IMG/VR virus record: IMGVR_UViG_3300042505_001149
Location: 1 to 21,127 of that record
Reading direction: 5' to 3' (one strand)
DNA: 21,127 bases
From: a virus
Shown here: piece by piece, positions 1-20,213 of the stretch
How the letters are laid out: the number at the start of each line of letters is the position of its first letter
Position numbering within the stretch: position 1 is the first letter of the stretch
Notes under the pieces: generated by a model
The model's input: only the letters and a program-made list of their open reading frames with translations
What the model was told of the DNA's origin: nothing
The model's database searches: none
Program-made: the position numbers and the translations under genes

Positions 1-1012
1 ATCCTTTTGCAACTTTTTGCCAAGTCATATTTTCATTTATATATACAGCCGAAGAGTATGTTTTTTCCGATACCTCTTCATAGTGATTAGTTACATATAA
101 CATTTTATCACACAAATCATCAAAACTTGGCATTGCCCACATACCTGCACCTTCGTATAAGCCAGTCATTTTCTCAGTGGACCAAGTGTAGTCCAAAGGG
201 ACCGACATCTCAGCGTATTCTTCGCAGGCAGTCGCATTAGTGCATATGGTAGGAATTGCTTTGGCGATCCCCTGAAATGGAATATTCCCCCACCCCTCAC
301 CGCTGGTCGGATACAGCAAGCAATCAGCAAGATCATAGATCCTGCCGAGCTCCTCAACAGGAACTTCCCAATCTATTATTTCAATCTGAGGGTGCTTCAA
401 TGCACTCCTCATTCCGCCAGTAAAGTTGCGAGCGTCTGCTGGTCCGTTCGATTTATATATCATACGGTATCCGTCTTTACCTCCAAAAACTTTTATAAAA
501 GCATCAACGGACATTTGAGAGTTCTTACGAGTAGATGGGGAGCCTATGCTTAAAAAAGTAAATGGATTTTTCCTCACCCTTTTTATTGGATAAAAAATTT
601 CCGGGTCAACGCCAAGTTTAAAGTCATACAGAGGAACTTTGACTCCAGAGTTAATAAACACATCGCGCATAAATGTTGAACAAGTCCATACCTCAGACAT
701 CCTGTTGCAATCCTGAACCCATGAATCTGGGAGACGATTTGTCTCCCAGAATGTAAAGCCAATTGAATAAGTTGTTGATTCTACAAAAAACTCGGGCAGG
801 GAATGGTTTATGATTATATCGTCAGACGGCCCAGTCGTCTTGAAATAGCCAAGCGACAAGTCGTTGGTAATTGGGACAATCTCCGCTGGGGCAGTTGAAT
901 TATTTCGCCTTATAGGCAAGCCAGTCTTTGATAATTGATCAAAGAGGCGATCTGGCGTATAGCCATACCCAACGCTTAGCGGAGATGATTGATTGTCAGA
1001 CCAAAGTATCAT
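1..1012 (-). CDS. GT4-family (GT-B) glycosyltransferase, 3' end cut by window edge
   Basis: Retaining-type glycosyltransferase expected to move a sugar from an activated donor to an unknown acceptor in the cytoplasm. The frame is open from an ATG at 1012 to the left edge, giving 337 visible residues (MILWSDNQSSPLSVGYGYTP...). The C-terminal half carries the GT4 donor-site signature YPTSGEGWGNIPFQGIAKA, and earlier there is LGVDPEIFYP, typical of the linker between the two Rossmann domains. The last visible residues (ENMTWQKVAK) resemble the W-x-x-V-A helix that ends many GT4 enzymes, so little is missing. In the EX7E motif the second Glu is Gln (E-G-W-G-N-I-P-F-Q), as in the other GT4 gene at 4800-6056, which suggests paralogy. 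The start overlaps the YkgJ-like gene stop as ATGA, so translation is probably coupled. The acceptor is unknown; virion protein, phage DNA or host envelope are all possible. Confidence 0.85.
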   Translation of the reverse strand, partial: MILWSDNQSSPLSVGYGYTPDRLFDQLSKTGLPIRRNNSTAPAEIVPITNDLSLGYFKTTGPSDDIIINHSLPEFFVESTTYSIGFTFWETNRLPDSWVQDCNRMSEVWTCSTFMRDVFINSGVKVPLYDFKLGVDPEIFYPIKRVRKNPFTFLSIGSPSTRKNSQMSVDAFIKVFGGKDGYRMIYKSNGPADARNFTGGMRSALKHPQIEIIDWEVPVEELGRIYDLADCLLYPTSGEGWGNIPFQGIAKAIPTICTNATACEEYAEMSVPLDYTWSTEKMTGLYEGAGMWAMPSFDDLCDKMLYVTNHYEEVSEKTYSSAVYINENMTWQKVAKG

Positions 1013-1764
1013 TCTTGAACTTGAAACGCTATTTGCTTCCCAGCTCTCTCGGCAGCTTCTCTTAATTTAGGAATAGGGAGCCCGTGAACTTTCGTATACT
1101 CAACACGATAATTAAACCACCCCTCAACTGCTTTCCACATTCTGTCATCAGTTTTATCCGCCAGCTCATCTAGTTCCTCAGGTGAAAGAAGAAAGCTTAA
1201 AACACCTAATGGCATATACACCACAACATCGTATCCTGAATCTTTATCTTCCGAATATTTTGACAGTGCGTTCTGAAAACTCCTAACCATACTCTCAACT
1301 GGGGTCCCCGAATAAAAGTCAACATTATTGTAAACATTTCTTTCCCTCGGGCAAACATCATCTACTCCAACAAAAGCTCCGTAACTACGGCATACGAGAG
1401 GTCTAAAGCCGTAAATTGTGCATCCGTCTTTGTAGAAAGCACATTTTCTTTTGGTTTCACCGCCAAAGATCCATGTATCATCATACATAGCACCCTTGAG
1501 GGCAGATACGATTTTGTCAAAGCAATCGTCGGCGTATTCCTTGCCTTTACTCTCAATGTCTAAATAATATTGCTGGGTTATTCTAAAAGCAATATTGGCA
1601 CACTCAGCCATATGAATTGTTAAACCAATGGTACAGCAATTCCCCGAGCCGAGACATTTGTATTTTGTTTTATTCTGGTTTGCCTCAATAATCCTTGCTT
1701 GGTTGTAAATCATATCCAACTCAGCAAAGACGGCGAGGTCTGACGAGGACACTTTACGCTGCAT
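1009..1764 (-). CDS. YkgJ/CxxCxxCC-type cysteine-cluster protein
   Basis: A 251-residue protein with the cysteine pattern of the YkgJ family (putative zinc or iron-sulfur binding): near residue 40 KCLGSGNCCTIG, then CAFYKDGCTIYGFRPLVCRSYG around residues 108-129 and a further Cys at VCPRER. The C-I/T-Y-x-x-RP-x-x-CR block is the strongest family signature. The biochemical role of most family members is not established; one relative is part of the FliB lysine N-methylase, but no methylase part is visible here. No signal peptide or membrane segment is seen, so it should be cytoplasmic. It starts at an ATG overlapping the upstream HTH gene stop (TAATG) and overlaps the downstream glycosyltransferase as ATGA, so it sits inside an operon with it. 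A link to protein or sugar modification is inference only. Confidence 0.75.
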   Translation of the reverse strand: MQRKVSSSDLAVFAELDMIYNQARIIEANQNKTKYKCLGSGNCCTIGLTIHMAECANIAFRITQQYYLDIESKGKEYADDCFDKIVSALKGAMYDDTWIFGGETKRKCAFYKDGCTIYGFRPLVCRSYGAFVGVDDVCPRERNVYNNVDFYSGTPVESMVRSFQNALSKYSEDKDSGYDVVVYMPLGVLSFLLSPEELDELADKTDDRMWKAVEGWFNYRVEYTKVHGLPIPKLREAAERAGKQIAFQVQE

Positions 1765-4786: not shown

Positions 4787-4814
4787 ATTATCTATAGTAT
4801 CACTTAAAGTGCAA
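4787..4814 (-). promoter_or_regulatory. Possible promoter before the small-gene/recombination block
   Basis: On the minus strand, TTGCAC (4809-4814) and GATAAT (4787-4792) are separated by 16 bases, resembling -35 and -10 boxes. The predicted start would fall close to the AAGGAG ribosome site of the 32-residue gene, giving a very short leader. The -35 box overlaps the end of the GT4 gene. The -10 matches 5 of 6 consensus bases but the -35 is weak, and AT-rich DNA yields such matches by chance. Confidence 0.25.
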
Positions 4815-6056
4815 TAAAATCTCTTGATCAGTAGGTTCTCTAAACGAGGGGTTCTTGATCAGATGATCGTACTCATCCTCAGGGACTTTATGAATCGGAT
4901 TGTCCCTTGAAAAACGAATACCGTTTGGCGTAGAATACCCCGAACCACTTTGGAAGTATATGTATTTCTTTCTAGACACTTTCCCAATTGGCTTGAACAT
5001 ATCAATACCCACCCGCTTAATCAAGCCGCTTAGCATCTTGTCACATTGACTCTGCCAGTTGTATTCCTTGATAACTTTCGGGGCCTGTTTATAATAAAAA
5101 TCACATTGAGCATCAAAATTTTCAACCGCATTCTTCATCAACTCCACTGTTGAATCAAAATCGGGGAGTATGACATCACCAGTGTGATAGCCGGAATGCT
5201 GGGTCTTACCCATTGTTGACTCAATGATATTACCGCCAAGATATTTTTCGTAACTACACCACTTACTTGTTGAAATTGTTGGCATTCCTGTAGCCAACGC
5301 CTGAAGAGGGATTAGCCCGAAGCCCTCTCCTTCTGTTGGGTAGATAAGAATATCATGCTGATGGTACAGCTCAACCATTTCTTCCTGAGTCAGTGTTTTA
5401 AATATCCTGATAATATTTTCTTCCATGGCGGGGGCTTTGCCATTGAAAAGATCCATGACACTGAAGCCGCCGCCTTCCGCTCCGTGCCCATGATGTTTCA
5501 ATGTTAGCTGAAAATTATTATTACCTTTAAATAATTTAAGGAAAGCTCGCTCTGCGAGATCAGCCCTTTTTCGTTTACTGTCCGAATCAACATGCAGGAA
5601 TCGTATCTTATTCCGATTACCCCTTCTAAGGGGCTTCCACATATCATCAACACCAAGCTCGAATATATGTGTTGGGACATCTACGCCAGAATTTGCAATT
5701 GCATCGGCAGAGAATTGATTACCCACCCAGATTTCATCAAAAGTTTTCATAGTGGGAATCCACCAATCCCACGCTCTAGTTGATTCCAAATATGTACCAT
5801 TAATCTTGTACTGATGATCATGGTGTTTCTTGAAACCTGGCTGCCTGTAATCCTGTCCCGTGATAGGGTGATGCCATTCTGGCTCCATATAAAACATCTG
5901 GATTTGTGCAGCGGGATCATTCTCAACGACCTCCATCTGCTGACCGCGATAAGTGAATTGATTAAAGTGCTTTACAATATTGGTATAGCCATAGGCGTAG
6001 CCAAAGATGTTTATAGCATCCTTAATGTGCTGATCGGTATGGATTGAAAAAATCAT
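4800..6056 (-). CDS. GT4-family (GT-B) glycosyltransferase
   Basis: A complete 418-residue glycosyltransferase with a GT-B fold. Visible features: TFDEIWVGNQFSADAI in the N-terminal domain, FELGVDDMWKPLRRG at the domain linker, and YPTEGEGFGLIPLQALATG in the donor-binding domain (around residue 240). As in the gene at the left edge, the second Glu of EX7E is Gln (E-G-F-G-L-I-P-L-Q). The last 70 or so residues (FQSGSGYSTPNGIRFSRDN onward) lie beyond the usual GT4 core and are unrecognised. The ATG overlaps the stop of the RecA-like gene (ATGA). There is no signal peptide or membrane segment, so it acts in the cytoplasm. With the GT2 gene and the nucleotidyltransferase it suggests glycosylation of a phage or host component; the acceptor is not evident. 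Confidence 0.85.
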   Translation of the reverse strand: MIFSIHTDQHIKDAINIFGYAYGYTNIVKHFNQFTYRGQQMEVVENDPAAQIQMFYMEPEWHHPITGQDYRQPGFKKHHDHQYKINGTYLESTRAWDWWIPTMKTFDEIWVGNQFSADAIANSGVDVPTHIFELGVDDMWKPLRRGNRNKIRFLHVDSDSKRKRADLAERAFLKLFKGNNNFQLTLKHHGHGAEGGGFSVMDLFNGKAPAMEENIIRIFKTLTQEEMVELYHQHDILIYPTEGEGFGLIPLQALATGMPTISTSKWCSYEKYLGGNIIESTMGKTQHSGYHTGDVILPDFDSTVELMKNAVENFDAQCDFYYKQAPKVIKEYNWQSQCDKMLSGLIKRVGIDMFKPIGKVSRKKYIYFQSGSGYSTPNGIRFSRDNPIHKVPEDEYDHLIKNPSFREPTDQEILLHFK

Positions 6057-6967
6057 GCATTTATGCGCTTAAGAATTTCCTTAATTTGTTTTTCAGTCAA
6101 TTCAATAGCACCCATACCATTCCATTTACTTTCTTCATAAGAATACCATGCACCCTTGCGCTGAATAATATCCATTTGAATGGCAATATCAATAATCTCT
6201 CGGCTTTGATCAATCCGGCCCTCTTGAGGGAGGACATAGTAGTAACCCGTTGCTCCGATAGTTGGAATCTGTTTTGTTTTCTCAACAGTCCAAGTAGCCC
6301 GTTGAGAAGTAATCATATTATTCTCTTCACGCTCCATCTCGCCCTTGGACATAGAGAGAAACAACTTAACAATATTGTGCATGTTATGGTGAACCGTATT
6401 GCCCATCTTTGCTTTCGTAATCGCGTACATACCGCTCAAATCAACTGTTTGATGAGCAACAAACAGCATAATATTACGTTCTTTGTGAAGATAATTCACC
6501 AGCTTCTGCAAAAAGTAGCCTTGTGAACGAGCCGATAACCCCATCGCCTTACCACCCTCAGGCTTATCATAAAACTCTTCCTTCACAATATTAGACAAAG
6601 AGTCAAACAAGAAAATGTGTTTTTCCTTGTCATCCGTGAGGTATCCAATCAGATTCTTCATAATATCCTCAACAATAGTGGACTGAATTACCACCACATC
6701 ACTAATATCCAAACCACACTTCTCAGCATACGCATCATTATAAGAAGACTCAGAATCAACAATCACAGGACGATACCCCATCCTCTGCGCCTCCGCCATA
6801 ATCCGAAAACACATAGTCGTCTTGCCCACCGAAGGTGTGCCCCAGAACAGATGAGTTGCGCCAGTGTTCAGCCCGCCCCCTAAAGCTTGATTCAGACCAA
6901 TACTGGGGGTTGGAATAACATCATGAATCGGCATTAGATCGCCTTTTCTTTTATCTACAATTAACAT
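6053..6967 (-). CDS. recA: RecA/UvsX-like recombinase ATPase
   Basis: A 304-residue RecA-family ATPase expected to form filaments on single-stranded DNA and carry out strand exchange for repair and recombination-dependent replication. It opens with PSIGLNQALGGGLNTGATHL, the RecA-type entry to Walker A, GTPSVGKTT at residues 43-51. VIVDSESSY (about 69-77) has the catalytic-Glu position, HIFLFDSLSN (117-126) is Walker B, and FVAHQT precedes a KAKMGNTVHHN loop where RecA has its DNA-binding L2. It is shorter than bacterial RecA (about 350), with reduced terminal domains, as in phage proteins. ATG 6967 has AGGAG four bases upstream. Its 5' half (about 6540-6950) has a strongly G+T-rich coding strand, unlike flanking genes. 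A non-recombinase RecA core (Sak4- or RadA-like) cannot be excluded. Confidence 0.8.
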   Translation of the reverse strand: MLIVDKRKGDLMPIHDVIPTPSIGLNQALGGGLNTGATHLFWGTPSVGKTTMCFRIMAEAQRMGYRPVIVDSESSYNDAYAEKCGLDISDVVVIQSTIVEDIMKNLIGYLTDDKEKHIFLFDSLSNIVKEEFYDKPEGGKAMGLSARSQGYFLQKLVNYLHKERNIMLFVAHQTVDLSGMYAITKAKMGNTVHHNMHNIVKLFLSMSKGEMEREENNMITSQRATWTVEKTKQIPTIGATGYYYVLPQEGRIDQSREIIDIAIQMDIIQRKGAWYSYEESKWNGMGAIELTEKQIKEILKRINA

Positions 6968-6976
6968 ATTTCTCCT

Positions 6977-7411
6977 TTATTGAAACATTCTATCTAAAAT
7001 TCTTGATTTAATAACTGTTGTCGAGATGTCCTCTGTGTATGGCACAAATACAACCTTAATACCTTGTTCATCCAACCACTCTTGGGTGAAGCCCATTTGC
7101 TTATGGTAATTCTTATTCTCCCAGTCGGAGCCGACAACTATTAAGTCTGGCTTTGCTTCTAGAATAGCGGGTCTTGAATCAGCCTCACCGACATTGATGA
7201 TAACCTTATCAACCCATTTACATGAGGCGACCACTTCCATTCTTTCAAATAAATCACAAATTGGTGGTTCTTTATAGCTGGCGCAGAACTCACTGGGATT
7301 TACTGAAACGACAACTTCCCCGCCTCTGCCAGCGAGATCTTTGCACTTCTTTAATAACCTAACATGGCCTGAGTGAAACAGATCAAATGTACCACCAGTA
7401 TATACAATCAT
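6977..7411 (-). CDS. Cytidylyltransferase-like nucleotidyltransferase (TagD/RfaE type)
   Basis: A 144-residue enzyme of the HIGH-type nucleotidyltransferase superfamily, which joins a nucleotide to a phosphorylated small molecule (for example glycerol-3-phosphate, a sugar phosphate or a phosphoalcohol). Motifs: GGTFDLFHSGH with H13 and H16, FERMEVVASCKWVDKV, VVGSDWENK near residue 94, and the C-terminal ISTTVIKSRI (ISTT at 129-132), which binds the nucleotide phosphates. Length matches glycerol-3-phosphate cytidylyltransferase (about 130-140 residues). Substrate cannot be read from sequence. It starts at an ATG with GGAG five bases upstream and overlaps the GT2 gene, so it could supply activated donor or acceptor for the neighbouring glycosyltransferases. 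Confidence 0.85.
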   Translation of the reverse strand: MIVYTGGTFDLFHSGHVRLLKKCKDLAGRGGEVVVSVNPSEFCASYKEPPICDLFERMEVVASCKWVDKVIINVGEADSRPAILEAKPDLIVVGSDWENKNYHKQMGFTQEWLDEQGIKVVFVPYTEDISTTVIKSRILDRMFQ

Positions 7412-8130
7412 TTTTTCTCCAATGAAGCGCTAACGAAATTCCATTTATTTGCACTATGAAAAGTAAATCTCTCAACACTATTAGCATCAGCTAGTGCGTC
7501 TGAGTATTCAAACATAACCCAATCAAAATCCTTAAATTCAAACAGATTAGTGTCATTTACTAAAACTGTTGGAGAGCTAGGGGTACTAACTGTCTTGCAA
7601 TTGAGACCAGCCCAAGCCAAAACATTTCTAGAATCCAAGTGCTTCACTCCTGTTCTAAAGTCCATGACATCCCTTCTCCACACATTCATACTCGCAAGTG
7701 TTGCTGCAATTAAAAATGATTTATCATTTAAACTATTTATCAACTCAGCCATTGTACCAGAAAAACCAGGGATAACTTCGCCAGAGTAGGGTGCAAATTG
7801 CATAACCCTGTCTACTCCGTTCAGCATAGGGAGTATTGTTTCAATAGCACCCGGGAGCAGGGTATCGTCATCACCAATCACCCATACATACTCGCCAGAC
7901 CCGACTGTTGTGCCGTACAAGCAATTGCCATCACACCCAATATTTTGTTTCCTTATGGAGTAATCGGATATATAATCCTTGTATTTATAAACGACTTGCC
8001 TTGCATAACCATCTTGGTCATTGTCAGATACAATAATCTCAACATTGGAATTAGTTTGAGATACTATACTATCCAAGCAATAATCCAAAGAGTCTCTTCT
8101 GTATGTTGGAATATATATTGTAAGAAGCAT
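7408..8130 (-). CDS. GT2-family (GT-A) glycosyltransferase
   Basis: A 240-residue inverting-type glycosyltransferase. The N-terminus LLTIYIPTYRRDSLDYCLDS is the GT2 nucleotide-binding opening, EIIVSDNDQD follows, and VWVIGDDDTLLPG carries the metal-binding DDD at residues 87-89. QNIGCDGNC near residue 62 also fits the family (the usual N-x-G region before the DXD strand). The part after residue 110 is divergent. There is no membrane segment, unlike dolichol-type GT2 enzymes. The ATG overlaps the dnaE stop (TGATG), and the next gene, a nucleotidyltransferase, starts 4 bases before its stop. Acceptor unknown. Phage GT2 and GT4 enzymes in actinobacteriophages are known to glycosylate virion proteins, which makes that the first hypothesis. 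Confidence 0.85.
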   Translation of the reverse strand: MLLTIYIPTYRRDSLDYCLDSIVSQTNSNVEIIVSDNDQDGYARQVVYKYKDYISDYSIRKQNIGCDGNCLYGTTVGSGEYVWVIGDDDTLLPGAIETILPMLNGVDRVMQFAPYSGEVIPGFSGTMAELINSLNDKSFLIAATLASMNVWRRDVMDFRTGVKHLDSRNVLAWAGLNCKTVSTPSSPTVLVNDTNLFEFKDFDWVMFEYSDALADANSVERFTFHSANKWNFVSASLEKK

Positions 8131-11100
8131 CAGACACTCTCTTTTACAAGATTCTTTCTCTTGACATAATCATCTACCGTAATGATTTTATCTGCCGACT
8201 CAAGCTTGTACGAGTCAAGGCGATTGAGAGTATTCTTGTCCTCAACTTTTGACAGACGAACGGCATACCACTCATTTTCCTTAAGCATCTGCTTAACTTT
8301 CTTATACACTGCGGCAAAGACTACGATCTTAAAGAATTGCTTGCCATCCCAGCAATAGACGCTTGCCATCTCTTTGCCCGACGAGGTAGTGAAGCTTCTA
8401 ATATTAAACACATATGCCAGTGTTTTTTCATCAGTTACATAACCAATGCCGTGATCATAAAGCCAAGCGTACTTATGATCAATACCATGCTTCTTGAGCA
8501 TCATAATGTTAAACAGATTAGAATCTTCTGCCTGATAGACATCACAGTAGGCATGTAATGTTCTATCCCCGATAAGAGCATAAACATAATCCCTCTGGGC
8601 GAGTTCGGTATTGCGTTCTCCAAAGACCGTGCAGGAACCCGAGTGATCTTCAAACTCAACTCTCAAGTACCCAGTAGCTTTCTTTGTGGAACGCACAACT
8701 GCTTTAATTAAAGTAAGGTTTGAAATTGTTTCATGAAAGTCTACGGCGTTTTCTACAAATTCATCAATAGCAGTTTTGTGCTGATTGGCAGCGATAGGGA
8801 ACCCAAGGATTGGTAGGTAATACTTTTCATTATCAAACTGGGAGACATGACCTATCGATTTAAACGCGCCGACTTTATCGAAGTTCTCTCGCAGTGGTGC
8901 TTTTATTGCCGTCTTGGAACACTTATTATTAAATTCCTCAAATGAATTAAACGGGCGCTTGGTTGTGATTTCTTTAATCGCACTAGAACCACATCCAGTG
9001 ACATTGGCTAATCCAAATCTAATTCCCTCTTCTTCATCGGGGAGAGACATTGAGAAGAACTCCTCTGACTTGTTAATGTCAGGGGCGTATATTTTAAGAC
9101 CAAGTCTTTGTGCTTCCATCAAGTATGCCGTGATCTTGTCAGATGCCGACTCGTTATAAAGAAGCGACCAAATAAATTCCAACGGGTAATTAATCTTCAA
9201 CCACATTGTTTGATACGACATAAGTGAATAGGCAACAGCATGAGATTTATTAAACATATACAATGCCGACATTTCAAACTCAGCCCATATCTTTTCGGAT
9301 TGAGCTGGGGTGAGATATTTATTACTTACAAACTTGTCTTTAAACTTGGCGAACTCAGCAATATCACGCTTCTTACCAATGATCTTTCTAAGGGAGTCGG
9401 CCTCGGACCATGTGAAGTCTGCCAACAGCACCGCCATCTGCATCAATTGCTCTTGAAAAATGACCGTACCGTATGTTTCCTCAAGAATTGGTTTTACAAT
9501 ATCATTCGGATACTTAGGTTTAGCCTCACCCTTTTTACAATCGATATACCGCTTGCCTTGAGAAAGCAAAGCGCCGGGTCGGACTAAGGCATTGGAAACA
9601 ACAAGGTCATTAAAGTTATCAATACCCATTCTTTCAATAAGGTTTCTATAGGCAGCCGCATCCGCCTGAAAGATACCCACGGTGTTAATATTATTAAAGT
9701 TTTCAAACACCCTTTGATCATCCAGACCAAGTGATTGGGCTCGCACATCAATCCCCAGACGCTCCTGAATCTTCGCTAAGCAATCTTTAATCACAGATAC
9801 GGTCTTTAGACCCAAAATATCTATTTTAATAAGCCCAACGGCTTCGGCATCTTCCATTGCAAAAGCTGTAACCGCCGAACGCTCCCCGCCTTGAGAATCC
9901 TTGCGAGATTCAACGGGGCAAACATCGGTCAAAGGAACAGAAGAAACCACCATGCCCGCCGCATGCACCCCAACGGTACGAATACGATTCTCCAGCCTTG
10001 AAGCCAACGGCACAACATCGGGATACTTCTTGCCAAACACCTTTCCCTTCTCGGTGGCTTTAAGTTCATCAATCGTTTCAAAAAACGGGGTGATCGAATT
10101 GATTTCGGCATACGGAACTTGCAGCACTCTTGCAACATCTTTAACCGCACTCTTCGCCTTGAAAGTACCATAAATAGAAATTGCCGCAACATTATCCTCG
10201 CCCCAACAAGTAGCAAGATAAGTTTTAATCTCATCACGCCTCTTATCTTCAAAGTCCAAGTCAATATCCGGATAGTCATTGCGCTCAGGATTAATAAAAC
10301 GAGCAAACAACAAATTATATTTAATCGGATCAACTTCCGTGATGTTCAACAAAAACGCCATCAAACTACCGCCAACAGAACCACGACCAGTACCACGACC
10401 AATACCATTCGCATCAGCCCACTTCACCAAATCCCACACAATCAAAAAATAGTCCGCAAAACCAAGCTGCTTAATAATCGACAACTCATCATCCAGCCGT
10501 TGACGATACACATCACTATCCAAACCCGATTCCTTCAAACTAAAATGCGTAATTTCCGACAAATAATAATCCGAATCCAACGCCTTCATATACTTCGGCA
10601 AAAGATTCTTACGCTTTTCCATCCGAGCCGTACACTTCTCGGCAACCTCCATCGTATTTTCCAGAATATCAAGCCGATCATACCCAGCATCTTTAAACCA
10701 AGAAGCCACCTCATCAGCATGAGCCACATACGGGTTAATCTCATCAAACCTAAGATGCCTGTTAGGATACATATTGTTGATTTTCGCCACCATATCTAGG
10801 GATGGGTTGTGCAAGCAATCGGCATGGTCCTTAGCATGGCGCTGGTCTGCGGCAGATAGGCCTGGGAACTGAGAAAGCATCAGCAGAATCTCTTCACAGC
10901 CCTTATCTTTCTTACTAGGGAAATGGCAATCTGCCGTAGCAAGTACAGGTCTGTTATAAGCGTTTGCTAAATCAATTAACCCGTCATTTAAATCCTTTGG
11001 GTTCCAAGCTTGCATTTCATAATAGAAATCATCCTTGAATATCTTTATAAACCTTTCAGACAGCTGCTCTGCACGGGCAGTATCGCCCGCCATAATTGCC

Positions 11101-11531
11101 TTGGATATAGCACTACCCATACACCCTGATAACGAGATAATGTCGCCATCAACAAATTCCTCAAGCAGAGCGAAATCCATTCTTGGCTTATAGTAAAAAT
11201 TACTACCCCAAGCCTTTTGATTCATCTTGAATAGCTTCTTAAGACCTTCGTTATTCTTAGCCAGAAGAATCAAATGGAAGCGCTCACTCCTATCCTCGGA
11301 GTCAGATTCTATTGATGGTACGAAATAGGCTTCTATGCCAAACAAAGGCTTTACATCATTTGCTACACAAGCATCTTGAAACTTCAATACCCCGCCCATA
11401 GTGCCGTGGTCAGTAATCGCAGCGGCGAACTGACCGTTGGTGCTTGTTATCTTAGCAATCTCCTCGGGTGTAGACATACCGTCTAACAGTGAGTACTCAG
11501 AGTGACAATGTAGGTGAACAAAGTCTGTCAT
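8130..11531 (-). CDS. dnaE: C-family DNA polymerase (DnaE-like, DNA polymerase III alpha)
   Basis: A 1133-residue replicative polymerase. The N-terminal PHP domain keeps all nine expected metal ligands: H8, H10, D17, H42, E67, H86, C137, D201 and H203. The palm has GRGTGRGSVGGSL (about 378-390), YPDIDLDFEDKRR with catalytic D422 and D424, and LIKIDILGLKT with the third Asp. TVIFQEQLMQMA and SLRKIIGKK mark the fingers. Toward the C-terminus are two OB-like stretches, YLRVEFEDHSGSCTVFGER and, after TTSSGKEMASVYCWDG, a second one in the usual DnaE OB position. No clear clamp-binding QxxLF motif is visible. Length is close to bacterial DnaE (about 1160). ATG 11531 has GGAG five bases upstream and overlaps the nucleotidase stop. 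A stretch from about 9850 to 10720 has a very G+T-rich coding strand. Confidence 0.95.
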   Translation of the reverse strand: MTDFVHLHCHSEYSLLDGMSTPEEIAKITSTNGQFAAAITDHGTMGGVLKFQDACVANDVKPLFGIEAYFVPSIESDSEDRSERFHLILLAKNNEGLKKLFKMNQKAWGSNFYYKPRMDFALLEEFVDGDIISLSGCMGSAISKAIMAGDTARAEQLSERFIKIFKDDFYYEMQAWNPKDLNDGLIDLANAYNRPVLATADCHFPSKKDKGCEEILLMLSQFPGLSAADQRHAKDHADCLHNPSLDMVAKINNMYPNRHLRFDEINPYVAHADEVASWFKDAGYDRLDILENTMEVAEKCTARMEKRKNLLPKYMKALDSDYYLSEITHFSLKESGLDSDVYRQRLDDELSIIKQLGFADYFLIVWDLVKWADANGIGRGTGRGSVGGSLMAFLLNITEVDPIKYNLLFARFINPERNDYPDIDLDFEDKRRDEIKTYLATCWGEDNVAAISIYGTFKAKSAVKDVARVLQVPYAEINSITPFFETIDELKATEKGKVFGKKYPDVVPLASRLENRIRTVGVHAAGMVVSSVPLTDVCPVESRKDSQGGERSAVTAFAMEDAEAVGLIKIDILGLKTVSVIKDCLAKIQERLGIDVRAQSLGLDDQRVFENFNNINTVGIFQADAAAYRNLIERMGIDNFNDLVVSNALVRPGALLSQGKRYIDCKKGEAKPKYPNDIVKPILEETYGTVIFQEQLMQMAVLLADFTWSEADSLRKIIGKKRDIAEFAKFKDKFVSNKYLTPAQSEKIWAEFEMSALYMFNKSHAVAYSLMSYQTMWLKINYPLEFIWSLLYNESASDKITAYLMEAQRLGLKIYAPDINKSEEFFSMSLPDEEEGIRFGLANVTGCGSSAIKEITTKRPFNSFEEFNNKCSKTAIKAPLRENFDKVGAFKSIGHVSQFDNEKYYLPILGFPIAANQHKTAIDEFVENAVDFHETISNLTLIKAVVRSTKKATGYLRVEFEDHSGSCTVFGERNTELAQRDYVYALIGDRTLHAYCDVYQAEDSNLFNIMMLKKHGIDHKYAWLYDHGIGYVTDEKTLAYVFNIRSFTTSSGKEMASVYCWDGKQFFKIVVFAAVYKKVKQMLKENEWYAVRLSKVEDKNTLNRLDSYKLESADKIITVDDYVKRKNLVKESV

Positions 11532-15062: not shown

Positions 15063-15364
15063 TCAATCTCCATTCTCTTCTTTGTCTCTTCGACTATTGA
15101 CTTAAATTTATCACTAGATTTCTTATCAAACTCTGCCTTTTCAATAAAGGATCTTGACTCTATCGCAAAATCAAATATTAGAAATGGGCCTGGCTTACTT
15201 TTTACAAACCTATCAATTCCCAATTCCAAATTGTCTGTTTTATAAAAGTTTGCCAGTGAATCAGCAACCGCCTCTTGACGAGGAGAGTCAGGGATTAAAA
15301 GTTTATTTTGCTTTTCGCAACAACTTTTGAAGTATCTTATCAGATCTTGTCCAGTTTTTATCAT
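15059..15364 (-). CDS. 101-residue protein before helicase; candidate helicase loader
   Basis: Not a recognised family. The protein is charged and mostly helical by eye, with a central hydrophobic strand in KPGPFLIFDFAIESRSFIEK (residues 55-74) and a Lys/Glu-rich C-terminal helix. It starts at ATG 15364, 62 bases inside the WhiB-like gene, and its stop overlaps the helicase GTG. Several phages encode a loader of about 100-150 residues directly before or after DnaB (for example the SPP1 G39P type), and size and coupling fit that role, but no sequence match was seen by eye. An alternative is a nuclease or recombination accessory protein. Confidence 0.5.
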   Translation of the reverse strand: MIKTGQDLIRYFKSCCEKQNKLLIPDSPRQEAVADSLANFYKTDNLELGIDRFVKSKPGPFLIFDFAIESRSFIEKAEFDKKSSDKFKSIVEETKKRMEIE

Positions 15365-15593
15365 TTTCTTTCTTAGCCTCCTTCCAAGTCTCTAGCATGA
15401 TATCGAACTCTGAGTACCCGCCATTGACTCCAAAAATATGCTCAACCGCCCATGCGTTTAATAAACATTCTTTTCTTACCGAGCATGATGAGCAAACTTT
15501 CTTTGCGTACTCAACTTCTTTATGATTGTAAGAAAACCAGTAATGACTGTTGGGATCTTTTGCGCACAGCGCAAGAAGAGTCCAGTGAGACAT
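15303..15593 (-). CDS. whiB: WhiB-family iron-sulfur transcription regulator
   Basis: A 96-residue WhiB-like protein. The four ligands of the [4Fe-4S] cluster are C10, C34, C37 and C43 (C-x23-C-x2-C-x5-C, with CSSCSVRKEC matching the usual CPVRxxC block). IFGVNGGYSE at residues 53-62 is the conserved turn, with Asn where most members have Trp (GVWGG), and the C-terminus is basic (SDKILQKLLRKAK), fitting DNA or sigma-factor contact. WhiB proteins bind the host primary sigma factor; phage versions such as WhiB of mycobacteriophage TM4 interfere with host WhiB2 control. The family is restricted to Actinobacteria and their phages, so it identifies the host phylum. The ATG directly follows the upstream stop; only a weak AGAGAAG ribosome site is seen. 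Confidence 0.85.
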   Translation of the reverse strand: MSHWTLLALCAKDPNSHYWFSYNHKEVEYAKKVCSSCSVRKECLLNAWAVEHIFGVNGGYSEFDIMLETWKEAKKENDKNWTRSDKILQKLLRKAK

Positions 15594-18061: not shown

Positions 18062-18727
18062 CTATACGCTTGCGCCAGCGTCTTCAATAATAAGTTGCAA
18101 TTTTTCTGTTGATGTCGGATTAACGCTAACTTGAGGAGCGTTTGTTGCGCCAGATGTACCAAAAACTCGTGAGACAGAGACAGAAAATGAATTCGCATTA
18201 AGACCGCCGCCTGACTCTAGGTAGACAGAGTAGGTGCCCGCGCCAACGCGCCCGCTATCTTGCTTGAAGGTGGACCCGCTTGTCAAGACATTAGCGTTCG
18301 CCGCAGTGTTGTAAAATATATGAGGAGATGGAGTGAAGTTCCATTCCATAACAGGACTAGTTCCTGCGTACCCATTTGAGACCGCATTAAATATTTTTAA
18401 AGTTAATTTGCAGTCCTCAGCGCCTTTACCGAGTATGGTGAACCCAGGGAATACGCAAGTAGCCTTGTAGTACCTATTCGGCTGTATTGTCACTCTTTGA
18501 TCAGACCCGCCAACAGGATTGGTTAAGGCTAGTATTTGAGTATCTGTATTGCTAACATTTGAAACAACATTGTTTGTTGTTAATTGTATAAATTCAAGAA
18601 CACCTGCGGGCTTGGCATCATTGAAGTCCCGAATTTGTTCCATATTCATGGACATCTGCGCAAGCCTGTCTGAGCTGATTGGGGTACCGTCTGTCCATGA
18701 TACAAAAGTGTAGTTCTCGTAAGCCAT
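18062..18727 (-). CDS. Probable tail fiber or virion structural protein
   Basis: A 221-residue protein, mostly beta-strand by eye and rich in Ser, Thr, Asn and Gly, with no enzyme motif. The N-terminus NYTFVSWTDGTPISSDRLAQ followed by MSMNMEQIRDFND looks like an anchoring segment seen at the start of actinophage tail accessory proteins, and residues 45 to the end have the repeat-free beta-sandwich look of a receptor-binding or decoration domain. It lies between the S74 fiber and the HNH gene. A TATAAT overlapping the upstream stop codon ends 6 bases before its ATG and no Shine-Dalgarno site is seen. The virion role is inferred from position and composition. Confidence 0.55.
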   Translation of the reverse strand: MAYENYTFVSWTDGTPISSDRLAQMSMNMEQIRDFNDAKPAGVLEFIQLTTNNVVSNVSNTDTQILALTNPVGGSDQRVTIQPNRYYKATCVFPGFTILGKGAEDCKLTLKIFNAVSNGYAGTSPVMEWNFTPSPHIFYNTAANANVLTSGSTFKQDSGRVGAGTYSVYLESGGGLNANSFSVSVSRVFGTSGATNAPQVSVNPTSTEKLQLIIEDAGASV

Positions 18728-18733
18728 TTATCT

Positions 18734-18739
18734 ATTATA
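18734..18739 (-). promoter_or_regulatory. Possible -10 box before the 221-residue fiber gene
   Basis: TATAAT on the minus strand overlaps the stop codon of the S74 fiber gene (GTATAA) and ends 6 bases before ATG 18727, the same layout as the metallophosphoesterase promoter. No -35 match is found at 16-18 bases and there is no extended TG. It may be chance in AT-rich DNA, but the missing ribosome site makes leaderless expression worth testing. Confidence 0.25.
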
Positions 18740-20213
18740 CCTTACTTTCTAGTTCTTTGACACGATTGTTTAGATCCTGTACTGCTTGTATTAAATAAGG
18801 GACCAACCCAAGATAATTGACTGAAAGAAAAGCTTCCTCATCATACGGATTTGCTGAAACTACTAGATCAGGCAGAATCTCATTAAGTTCCTGAGCTATT
18901 AAGCCAAGTCTTCTTGGGTATAGGTGCAGATTTTCTTCGTCTAGCAAATCTACTGGGTTAAAAGATACGACCCTTAATGAATCATATAATTTATTTAGCC
19001 AAGTATTTTCTGCATCTAAAATATTTGACTTTGATCTTACATCCGACACCGTTCCAAGAACAGCCGATACGACATTATCAACTGTTCCTCGTATATCTGG
19101 GTTATTCCAAACAAGCCCCATATAATTAGCAGTACCTGGACCAGTTGTAATTCCAGGATATATTATACCTATACCATTGACCTGACCCGTCTCCATCTCA
19201 ACCGTGCTGGTGCTCTGGATTGGAAGAGTTGAAAATATTCCGTTAGTCATATCTAATGCTATTCCCTCGCTTGGGCTTGTTACAAAAAGTTTTCCAGGGG
19301 CTATCCTGACCGCATTCAAAGGCTGACTGACTTGTTTAACTATAAAAGTATAAACAGTCCCGCCCTCAAAAACATAGGGGACATTGATTGATGTCTCTAT
19401 ACCGTCTTCAAGTGCGATTATGCTGCCATCTCCATTTAATGAAGCAAATGTCCCGATATCGCTTTGAGCAATAATTACTGTATCCCCATCATCATTAATA
19501 AGACTAATTTTGCCATCTGAAGATATAATATTACCCCCACTGATATCCCAGTTACCAACTGTTCCCGATGTCGCGTCTATTTGCCCGCTAATGTTTGCGC
19601 CAGTTGCGGATAAAGCCCCGCCAGCACTGACGCTAAAATTGCCGCTTGATGTTACGATTGCACCATTTCCAAAAAGCGAAAAAGCATTGGCAGTCAGATT
19701 CCCGTTTGCGTCAATATCAATTCCAGGCGTTGATACAGCCCCAGCTGTAATTGTTCCACGAATATAACTAGAATCAAAAACAGCTGAGCCGTCACCAGAT
19801 ATTGCCCAACCCACAGTGCCATTTGATGTTATTGAACCATTAGCTGCGACATTGCCATCGAAATTACTGCTTCTAATAATATTATTAACCAATACAATAT
19901 TCGCAGACAGCTCACTAGCCGTAACAGCACCGGCTTCTATATGTATCGACTGGATTGAGTTAGGATTCAACCGAACACCCGATGGCCCGAGCACATCTGT
20001 TTTAACTATGTTTGAAATAACAGATTTCAAGCTATCAAAATTCTTTTGCTGATTAGCCTGTCTGCTTGATGACCCAACATTCCCGACAACAAAGTCATAA
20101 ATTGAATAACTGGCTGTATCTATTAATGACGAAGATATACCATTGTGATCATGACCACCTTGAAAAAATAATATGCAACCCTCGGAAATTCCAGAGGAGA
20201 ACCTAGAAGCCAT
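18735..20213 (-). CDS. Tail fiber/spike with C-terminal S74 intramolecular chaperone
   Basis: A 492-residue trimeric-type fiber. The N-terminus holds FFQGGHDHNGISSSLIDT, a motif seen at the start of many phage fiber and neck proteins. Residues 90-330 are low-complexity beta material with repeated Gly/Ser/Asn turns (GNLTANAFSLFG, SGNFSVSAGG, SGTVGNWDISGG), as in triple beta-helix shafts. The last 103 residues form the S74 peptidase/chaperone: VSDVRSKSNI with predicted self-cleavage between S390 and D391 and K395 as catalytic partner, RRLGLIAQELNEILPDLV, and a C-terminal coiled coil (LIQAVQDLNNRVKELE). The chaperone would trimerise the fiber and then cut itself off. The ATG shares its A with the previous stop (TAATG), with AAGGTGG as ribosome site. 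It probably contacts the host surface. Confidence 0.85.
   Translation of the reverse strand: MASRFSSGISEGCILFFQGGHDHNGISSSLIDTASYSIYDFVVGNVGSSSRQANQQKNFDSLKSVISNIVKTDVLGPSGVRLNPNSIQSIHIEAGAVTASELSANIVLVNNIIRSSNFDGNVAANGSITSNGTVGWAISGDGSAVFDSSYIRGTITAGAVSTPGIDIDANGNLTANAFSLFGNGAIVTSSGNFSVSAGGALSATGANISGQIDATSGTVGNWDISGGNIISSDGKISLINDDGDTVIIAQSDIGTFASLNGDGSIIALEDGIETSINVPYVFEGGTVYTFIVKQVSQPLNAVRIAPGKLFVTSPSEGIALDMTNGIFSTLPIQSTSTVEMETGQVNGIGIIYPGITTGPGTANYMGLVWNNPDIRGTVDNVVSAVLGTVSDVRSKSNILDAENTWLNKLYDSLRVVSFNPVDLLDEENLHLYPRRLGLIAQELNEILPDLVVSANPYDEEAFLSVNYLGLVPYLIQAVQDLNNRVKELESKV

Follow-up and report, generated by a model that had tools for sequence, protein, structure and literature searches.

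Mycobacteriophages glycosylate their capsid and tail proteins with glycosyltransferases (GTs) of their own (PMC12363180), and such virion glycosylation is described for Che8, Corndog and Myrna, which combine an actinobacterial host with phage-coded glycosyltransferases, a methyltransferase in some cases, and sugars presumed to shield head or tail proteins (PMC12363180, PMC13313380). A second arrangement, which we term the GT-GT-NT module, is found in Streptomyces phages of the Stanwilliamsviridae (Blueeyedbeauty, Jay2Jay) and in Arthrobacter phage Atuin, where a nucleotidyltransferase (NT) lies directly behind two small glycosyltransferases, with overlaps; the Blueeyedbeauty copy follows RuvC in the block containing DnaE and RecA. 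In another actinobacterial phage, Pontimonas phage phiPsal1, the gene order is capsid, group I GT, SAM methyltransferase, GT2, neck protein, such that both glycosyltransferases reside between the major capsid and neck genes. Sugar genes can also accompany replication genes, as in RB69, whose sugar module lies between DNA polymerase and UvsX, and in T4, whose b-gt gene lies beside UvsX (PMC6024577).

We compared these systems with a sugar-transfer locus in a 21,127-nt stretch of viral DNA (IMG/VR virus record IMGVR_UViG_3300042505_001149, positions 1 to 21,127; hereafter the window), which had no megablast match among phages. Its genes are transcribed from the minus strand in the order DnaE, GT2, NT, RecA/UvsX, GT4a, with a YkgJ-type protein and a second GT4 (GT4b) further on (Table 1). 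Open reading frames and Pfam and PHROGs families agree on this layout, in line with the initial annotation, which had described contiguous GT2, nucleotidyltransferase, RecA-like and GT4 genes below dnaE; its reading of these genes as a sugar-transfer cassette is likewise borne out. GT2, NT and GT4a score above the Pfam cut-offs. The three overlapping junctions it counted are DnaE/GT2 (1 nt), GT2/NT (4 nt) and RecA/GT4a (4 nt), the first of which must be included to reach that number, while NT and RecA are separated by 9 nt. Because overlapping same-strand junctions are common both in the window (15/27) and in the related record G001 (71/151), those of the cassette are not special, and we rejected them as a sign of one shared pathway.

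Table 1. Positions in the window of the cassette genes, their neighbours and the host indicator.
Feature	Position	Strand	Evidence
GT4b (second GT4), truncated by the window end	2..1012	-	open-ended ORF; 348 aa in longer record G010
YkgJ-type CxxCxxCC protein, next to GT4b	1009..1764	-	PF03692 22.9 bits, just below cut-off 23
GT4a, GT-B glycosyltransferase, catalytic part ~residues 1-349	4800..6056	-	PF00534 33.9 bits, cut-off 26.4; phrog_2170 E 4.9e-43
GT4a C-terminal extension, residues 350-418, homologous to small head-module protein	4803..5009	-	BLASTP E 3e-9 among 344 proteins
RecA/UvsX-like recombinase, inside cassette	6053..6967	-	PF00154 68.5 bits; phrog_97 E 2e-40
NT, small cytidylyltransferase-like nucleotidyltransferase	6977..7411	-	PF01467 67.6 bits, cut-off 21
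GT2 (GT-A) glycosyltransferase, 240 aa	7408..8130	-	PF00535 52.5 bits, cut-off 23.3
DnaE-type DNA polymerase III alpha, upstream neighbour of cassette	8130..11531	-	phrog_405 E 1.4e-291; Pfam PF07733, PF17657, PF02811
WhiB-like protein, host indicator, outside cassette	15303..15593	-	same gene as G010:5025-5201, PF02467 43.3 bits

The cassette appears to be a variant of the virion glycosylation known from actinophages, and differs from the mycobacteriophage systems in its coupled nucleotidyltransferase, in a head-protein domain fused to GT4a and in its location within the replication block. The NT of the GT-GT-NT module is 50-51% identical to that of the window, but this module carries two small GTs instead of the one GT2 and lies apart from the DnaE-RecA gap, whereas in phiPsal1 no NT is annotated and the SAM methyltransferase takes its place. 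Combining the evidence set out below, we consider it about 70% probable that this WhiB-bearing actinophage uses the cassette to glycosylate its virion; GT4a may dock on the head through its C-terminal domain.

WhiB was present in all ten related records, one of which (G010) is 99-100% identical over the genes of the window; this agrees with the actinophage setting that had been assumed and supports an actinobacterial host, taken to be a freshwater one. All 41 viral loci of this lineage that span the GT2-NT-RecA segment keep it intact (several of these loci are near-identical populations), and the cassette genes are under purifying selection (mean pN/pS 0.15-0.35, with synonymous sites near saturation), so that the gene set is not a chance assembly. 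GT2-NT is the only constant part of the lineage cassette, and NT was found in 10/10 related records. GT4a is missing from 7 of the 40 lineage loci that cover its place, and the orthologue of GT4b separates DnaE from GT2 in nine loci (L005 included) and lies behind YkgJ in some others, as in the window, where the YkgJ gene, with cysteines conserved across a 12-row alignment, precedes GT4b in transcription order.

GT2 carries a GDDD motif and a conserved (L/I)DSR (alignment with 19 relatives); its structure model is poor (pLDDT 56), and tblastn against 50,697 phage records gave no match. NT, aligned in 18 rows, is a member of the PF01467 superfamily, yet by score it is neither a glycerol-3-phosphate cytidylyltransferase nor a heptose-1-phosphate adenylyltransferase equivalog (TIGR01518, 64.9 of 165.4 bits; TIGR02199, 72 of 181.5 bits), and we presume that it makes the activated donor. 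We sought it in ten of the eleven L043-L055 records (all except L045), seven of which carry a GT2 at about 51% identity and three a more distant one, and found it in none, implying that GT2 does not everywhere require a phage NT. Cellular relatives of NT came from six loci, all on MAG contigs, one of which (L155) is phage-like; on two others (L153, L156), genes near NT looked by eye like sugar- or sulfotransferases.

NT resembles envelope-pathway nucleotidyltransferases that act on glycerol-3-phosphate and heptose-1-phosphate, and GT2 scores against GTs that make cell-surface and lipid-linked glycans. Both observations would also fit a modification of the host envelope, in which NT and the GTs change a surface glycan (a teichoic-like polymer or a lipid-linked sugar) for superinfection exclusion, a role that PMC10202952 names for Planktophila phage GTs. 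However, we saw no flippase, polymerase or membrane-anchored GT in the cassette, and an envelope target, which we consider unlikely, leaves the head-module neighbours and the GT4a head domain described below unexplained.

The gap between DnaE and RecA holds GT2 and NT, much as sugar genes of T4 and RB69 occupy that between DNA polymerase and UvsX. From the position among replication genes the initial annotation had raised DNA hypermodification, which here would mean sugars placed on phage DNA as in these two phages. The 2OG oxygenases found in 9/10 related records and the many proteins without a known family could accommodate such a pathway, but the strongest 2OG matches of G001 and G002 sit in or beside the structural block, and a hydroxymethylase of the thymidylate-synthase type, among the genes that the annotation had proposed to look for, occurred in none of the ten related records (PF00303, with the control positive in 9/14). 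N6_N4_Mtase was likewise found in 0/10, TET/JBP (PF12851) exceeded its cut-off in 0/10, with one match at 11.6 versus 34.9 bits, a search of unproven sensitivity since no control genome gave a match, and no base-modifying enzyme appeared among the 108 of 170 G001 ORFs scanned with Pfam. Further differences from T4 and RB69 are that GT2 has a GT-A fold and that neither T4 AGT nor BGT is among the 50 PDB neighbours listed for GT4a (Foldseek). Because NT and GTs occur in the head modules of other phages, GT4a bears a head domain and the related records show no base-modifying enzyme, the proposal of DNA hypermodification is unsupported; position among replication genes is not diagnostic of a DNA target, and we regard this reading as very unlikely.

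The head-module setting is clearest on the bacterial MAG contig L155, where an HK97-type major capsid protein, a GT4-like protein, a small GT2, an NT 42% identical to that of the window and a head-to-tail adaptor are encoded by adjacent genes. Related orders occur in the viral loci L116 (GT4-GT2-NT-adaptor-tail tube), L119 (GT2-NT-adaptor-tube), L123 (capsid-GT4-NT-GT2) and L124 (NT-adaptor-tube); of the 31 distant viral NT loci, only 4 are set in a head module. The nearest GT2 outside the lineage (51% identity) comes from L044, the one such locus examined for its context, where it and a phrog_2170 GT4 follow the major head protein; neither megablast of this locus nor tblastn of its GT2 against phages gave a match. 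Synechococcus phage S-CBS4 encodes, in order, portal, hypothetical protein, GT, galactosyltransferase and SAM methyltransferase, then protease and head protein. Any orthology between the window GT2 and the small GT2-like proteins encoded by L155 and phiPsal1 would be tentative.

These loci also bear on the idea of several pathways, in which GT2-NT and GT4a/GT4b would each act on an acceptor of their own and be neighbours only because the DnaE-Cas4 interval is a hot spot of gene exchange. The absence of GT4a from some lineage loci, the variable position of GT4b and the constancy of GT2-NT alone would be expected under this idea, but GT4 and GT2 travel with NT in unrelated head modules too (L116, L123, L155) and GT2 and GT4 occur together in L044, and we rate it lowest among the explanations considered.

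GT4a belongs to family GT4 by its Pfam Glycos_transf_1 match above cut-off and the GT-B fold of its AlphaFold2 model (mean pLDDT 84.9; Foldseek), and at the E-X7-E motif of GT4 enzymes it reads E-X7-Q, with Q in at least 90% of alignment rows. Among the records listed by tblastn were Streptomyces (127), Rhodococcus (9) and Microcystis (1), with no mycobacteriophage among them. The C-terminal extension of GT4a matched a small head-module protein by hhalign with a probability of 98.5 (E 1.5e-15; controls at most 0.5), a match confined to GT4a among the cassette proteins. In the best 80 of 201 loci of this small protein, the major capsid gene lies directly upstream in 71/71 testable cases and a phrog_240 head gene downstream in 75/75; its tblastn against phages gave no match. 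The extension was found in 29/33 GT4a orthologues (two of the four misses are cut by contig ends, and GT4a of L012 and L013 is without it), and the tail of the L044 GT4 gave no convincing match to L044 head proteins. Among the literature matches listed, nothing was on point for a GT/head-domain fusion or for Stanwilliamsviridae GTs.

Taken together, NT in head modules, the context of the L044 GT2 and the head domain of GT4a point to a virion target. This tie would rest on relatives and on the GT4a domain rather than on position in the window, and it has to be set against the presence of the cassette among replication genes both in its own lineage and in Streptomyces phage Blueeyedbeauty. We infer the chemistry and the acceptor of the cassette enzymes as follows. 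NT would convert a phosphorylated sugar or polyol into an NDP donor, and GT2 and the GT4 enzymes would move sugars to virion proteins, most likely those of the head. GT4a may reach its substrate, or be built into the head, through its C-terminal domain, a homologue of the small protein whose gene stands between those of the major capsid protein and a head protein. More tentatively, at somewhat less than even odds, GT4a could use this domain, shared with the small head protein of the same phage, to dock on the capsid and sugar-coat the head while seated there, or be packaged with it, with NT supplying an unusual donor. The location among replication genes would then reflect where the lineage stores genes, not a DNA target.

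Relatives also encode FkbM methyltransferase, 2OG oxygenases, sulfotransferase and GNAT, a second tier of tailoring enzymes that could modify either the glycan or the protein. FkbM is present in 6/10 related records and, in L111, is fused to a GT25 that comes after NT. In G001 and G002 the structural block has a GT4 paralogue at its head end, the paralogue of G001 being separated from the portal gene by a ribonucleotide reductase gene. A collagen-like target for the 2OG oxygenases was rejected, as only runs of 6-7 GXY units were seen.

The phages of freshwater actinobacteria, an abundant group of bacteria, have been little studied. Whether such glycosyltransferases serve DNA protection or cell-wall change is left open in PMC10202952, and our sequence comparisons suggest a third answer, the phage particle as the target. 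A sugar cassette within a replication operon need not target DNA, and the head-protein domain fused to a glycosyltransferase offers a sequence handle for testing how a phage directs sugars to its own virion.

All of the genes named in the initial annotation were recovered on the minus strand in the order it claimed; the full row runs from DnaE through GT2, NT (a cytidylyltransferase-like nucleotidyltransferase), RecA/UvsX and GT4a to small ORFs, a Cas4-like nuclease, RuvC, YkgJ and GT4b. The overlaps it pointed to between cassette genes are present (1, 4 and 4 nt, with a 9-nt gap between NT and RecA), yet commonplace: 15 of 27 junctions overlap in the window, as do 71 of 151 in the related viral record G001, and because overlaps are the rule in both, those of the cassette are little informative.

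Cassette genes and their neighbours in the window
Feature	Position	Strand	Remark
DnaE	8130-11531	minus	
GT2	7408-8130	minus	
NT	6977-7411	minus	
RecA/UvsX	6053-6967	minus	
GT4a	4800-6056	minus	
YkgJ	1009-1764	minus	
GT4b	2-1012	minus	open end

The cassette is real and conserved. Megablast of the window, a 21-kb IMG/VR fragment, found no relatives among 50,697 phage records, and a GT2 scan yielded 54 viral loci, of which 43 belong to the same lineage by gene order (the shared genes of L002-L004 being 100% identical). GT2 and NT are constant across the lineage loci, with NT and RecA behind GT2 in all 41 loci covering both; GT4a is missing from 7 of the 40 covering its place, and GT4b lies behind YkgJ in many, an orthologue occurring between DnaE and GT2 in nine. 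Three records whose loci have a GT2-NT gap carry, just upstream of NT, a second stretch that matches its first 17 residues (G004:52089-52139, G007:50736-50786 and G009:40626-40676). The larger lineage records reach 105-109 kb, and G002 is probably a complete genome because its termini are identical over 123 bases. WhiB, found in all ten related records searched and in a window ORF (15303-15593), fits an actinobacterial host, and the low G+C content (0.377-0.378 in three records) would suit freshwater Nanopelagicales. Most of the lineage carries two WhiB genes per record (e.g., the window ORF and G010:31016-31225). Among the matches listed, DnaE is 36-37% identical to Streptomyces phage DnaE.

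GT4a exceeds GT4b in length by a C-terminal extension (residues 350-418). When GT4a was searched by BLASTP against all proteins called in G001 and G002 (344), the only kind of match besides glycosyltransferases (GTs) was a 99-aa head-module product (E = 3e-9 and 9e-9), and profile comparison of the extension with this small head protein gave a probability of 98.5 (E = 1.5e-15, 53 columns), against at most 0.5 for three other head-module proteins used as controls. The small protein stands alone in 7 of 10 records, always between the major capsid and phrog_240 head genes; among the best 80 of 201 viral loci, a capsid gene lies directly upstream in 71/71 with enough sequence and a phrog_240 gene downstream in 75/75. 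Of 33 GT4a proteins, 29 carry the extension; the exceptions are two contig-end cuts (L011, L033) and two real absences (L012, L013). The extension evolves faster than the GT4a core, yet is constrained (pN/pS 0.34 vs 0.16, with synonymous sites near saturation). The structural model of GT4a is of good quality, with a mean pLDDT of 84.9 and values of 80-89 over most of the extension, and its PDB neighbours, among them a chlorovirus GT, BshA, TarM and SdgB, a GT solved with a glycosylated SD peptide, are consistent with a GT-B enzyme without fixing the acceptor. Among the papers listed by searches of open-licence PMC literature, which were not specific to fusions, none describes such a fusion between a GT and a head-module domain.

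A head association also appears outside the lineage. The nearest GT2 relatives (about 51% identity, L043-L050) have a GT4 homologue alongside in 6 of 8 loci, the remaining two ending soon behind GT2; in L044, the one locus read, GT2 and a phrog_2170 GT4 both lie behind the major head protein and the phrog_240 head protein. A few genes ahead of them, L044:8404-9480 encodes a 358-aa head-module repeat protein with 28% Ser+Thr, a candidate glycan acceptor.

Across phages, the cassette is defined by NT. Of the 31 distant viral NT loci (L094-L125 without L107), 25 also hold, on the same short locus, a homologue of one of the GT queries; those that do not are L103, L105, L106, L121, L122 and L124. 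The next gene in many encodes a GT25-containing protein (assigned by family call in L097 and L111, elsewhere by BLAST to L111, where GT25 is fused to an FkbM methyltransferase). Several rows run within head modules: GT4, GT2, NT, head-to-tail adaptor and tail tube in L116; GT2, NT, adaptor and tube in L119; major capsid protein, GT4, NT and GT2 in L123; and NT, adaptor and tube in L124. The phage-like bacterial MAG contig L155, whose NT is 42% identical to that of the window over 137 residues, has the full row of capsid, GT4, GT2, NT and adaptor, then tube and tape measure (the last two named by eye and position). The row in Pontimonas phage phiPsal1 is capsid, GT, methyltransferase, GT2 and neck. 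In Streptomyces phages and Atuin, two small GTs precede NT, and in Blueeyedbeauty the NT module lies near RuvC. Together with the head-module loci, these phages indicate that the replication block is only one among several places where this module is kept. Blueeyedbeauty has two GTs beside its ribonucleotide reductase; in G001 the reductase gene (8381-10309, phrog_367) is flanked by a GT4 paralogue on one side and by the portal gene on the other.

The placement among replication genes had made DNA hypermodification worth considering, and the idea has a genuine precedent: according to PMC6024577, DNA polymerase and UvsX flank a sugar module in RB69, and b-gt adjoins UvsX in T4. The needed chemistry, in contrast, was not found in the records searched. 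The proposed hydroxymethylase check came back empty, PF00303 being found in 0/10 related records and 9/14 control genomes; N6_N4_Mtase likewise gave 0/10 against 11/14, and TET/JBP gave none over the cut-off (one at 11.6 bits), with no control genome positive. No base-modifying enzyme was seen in a Pfam scan of 108 of the 170 called ORFs of G001, the rest being mostly window-gene homologues, structural genes scanned with PHROGs, short ORFs and ORFs crossing 20-kb cuts. Because a number of large, conserved proteins belong to no family, this absence is no proof; DNA hypermodification is possible, but poorly supported. G001 encodes conserved proteins of 580 and 546 aa (75946-77688 and 87709-89349) that match no Pfam family, and one may be the terminase. 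Among 51 non-structural G001 proteins scanned, there was a weak hit to the ribosome-inactivating-protein family (PF00161, E = 0.00022). 2OG oxygenases occur in 9/10 records, most of those in G001 and G002 in or beside the structural block. A conserved one, on the minus strand, lies close to an FkbM methyltransferase gene (G001:106042-106623 and 433-1194; G002:15731-16291 and 18503-19102), and a TauD-type dioxygenase at the G001 site has no match in G002.

Related systems have been read in different ways. PMC12363180 reports glycosylated capsid and tail proteins for mycobacteriophages and names Che8, Corndog and Myrna as having glycosylated proteins, and PMC13313380 reads the GT and methyltransferase of Rhodococcus cluster CB phages as virion glycosylation too; Rhodococcus phages are among the GT4a matches. 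For Planktophila phage GTs, PMC10202952 proposes DNA protection or cell-wall change.

We consider virion glycosylation the best reading of the cassette, with a probability of roughly 70%. NT would supply an NDP donor; its scores, below both curated cut-offs (glycerol-3-phosphate and heptose-1-phosphate), do not identify the sugar. The GT2 and GT4 enzymes, judging from their linkage, would build a glycan on virion proteins, with the domain that GT4a shares with the small head protein presumably bringing it to the head. FkbM, present in 6/10 records, may trim the decoration, as may a sulfotransferase, a GNAT and a 2OG oxygenase encoded among 36 ORFs of the G001 structural region.
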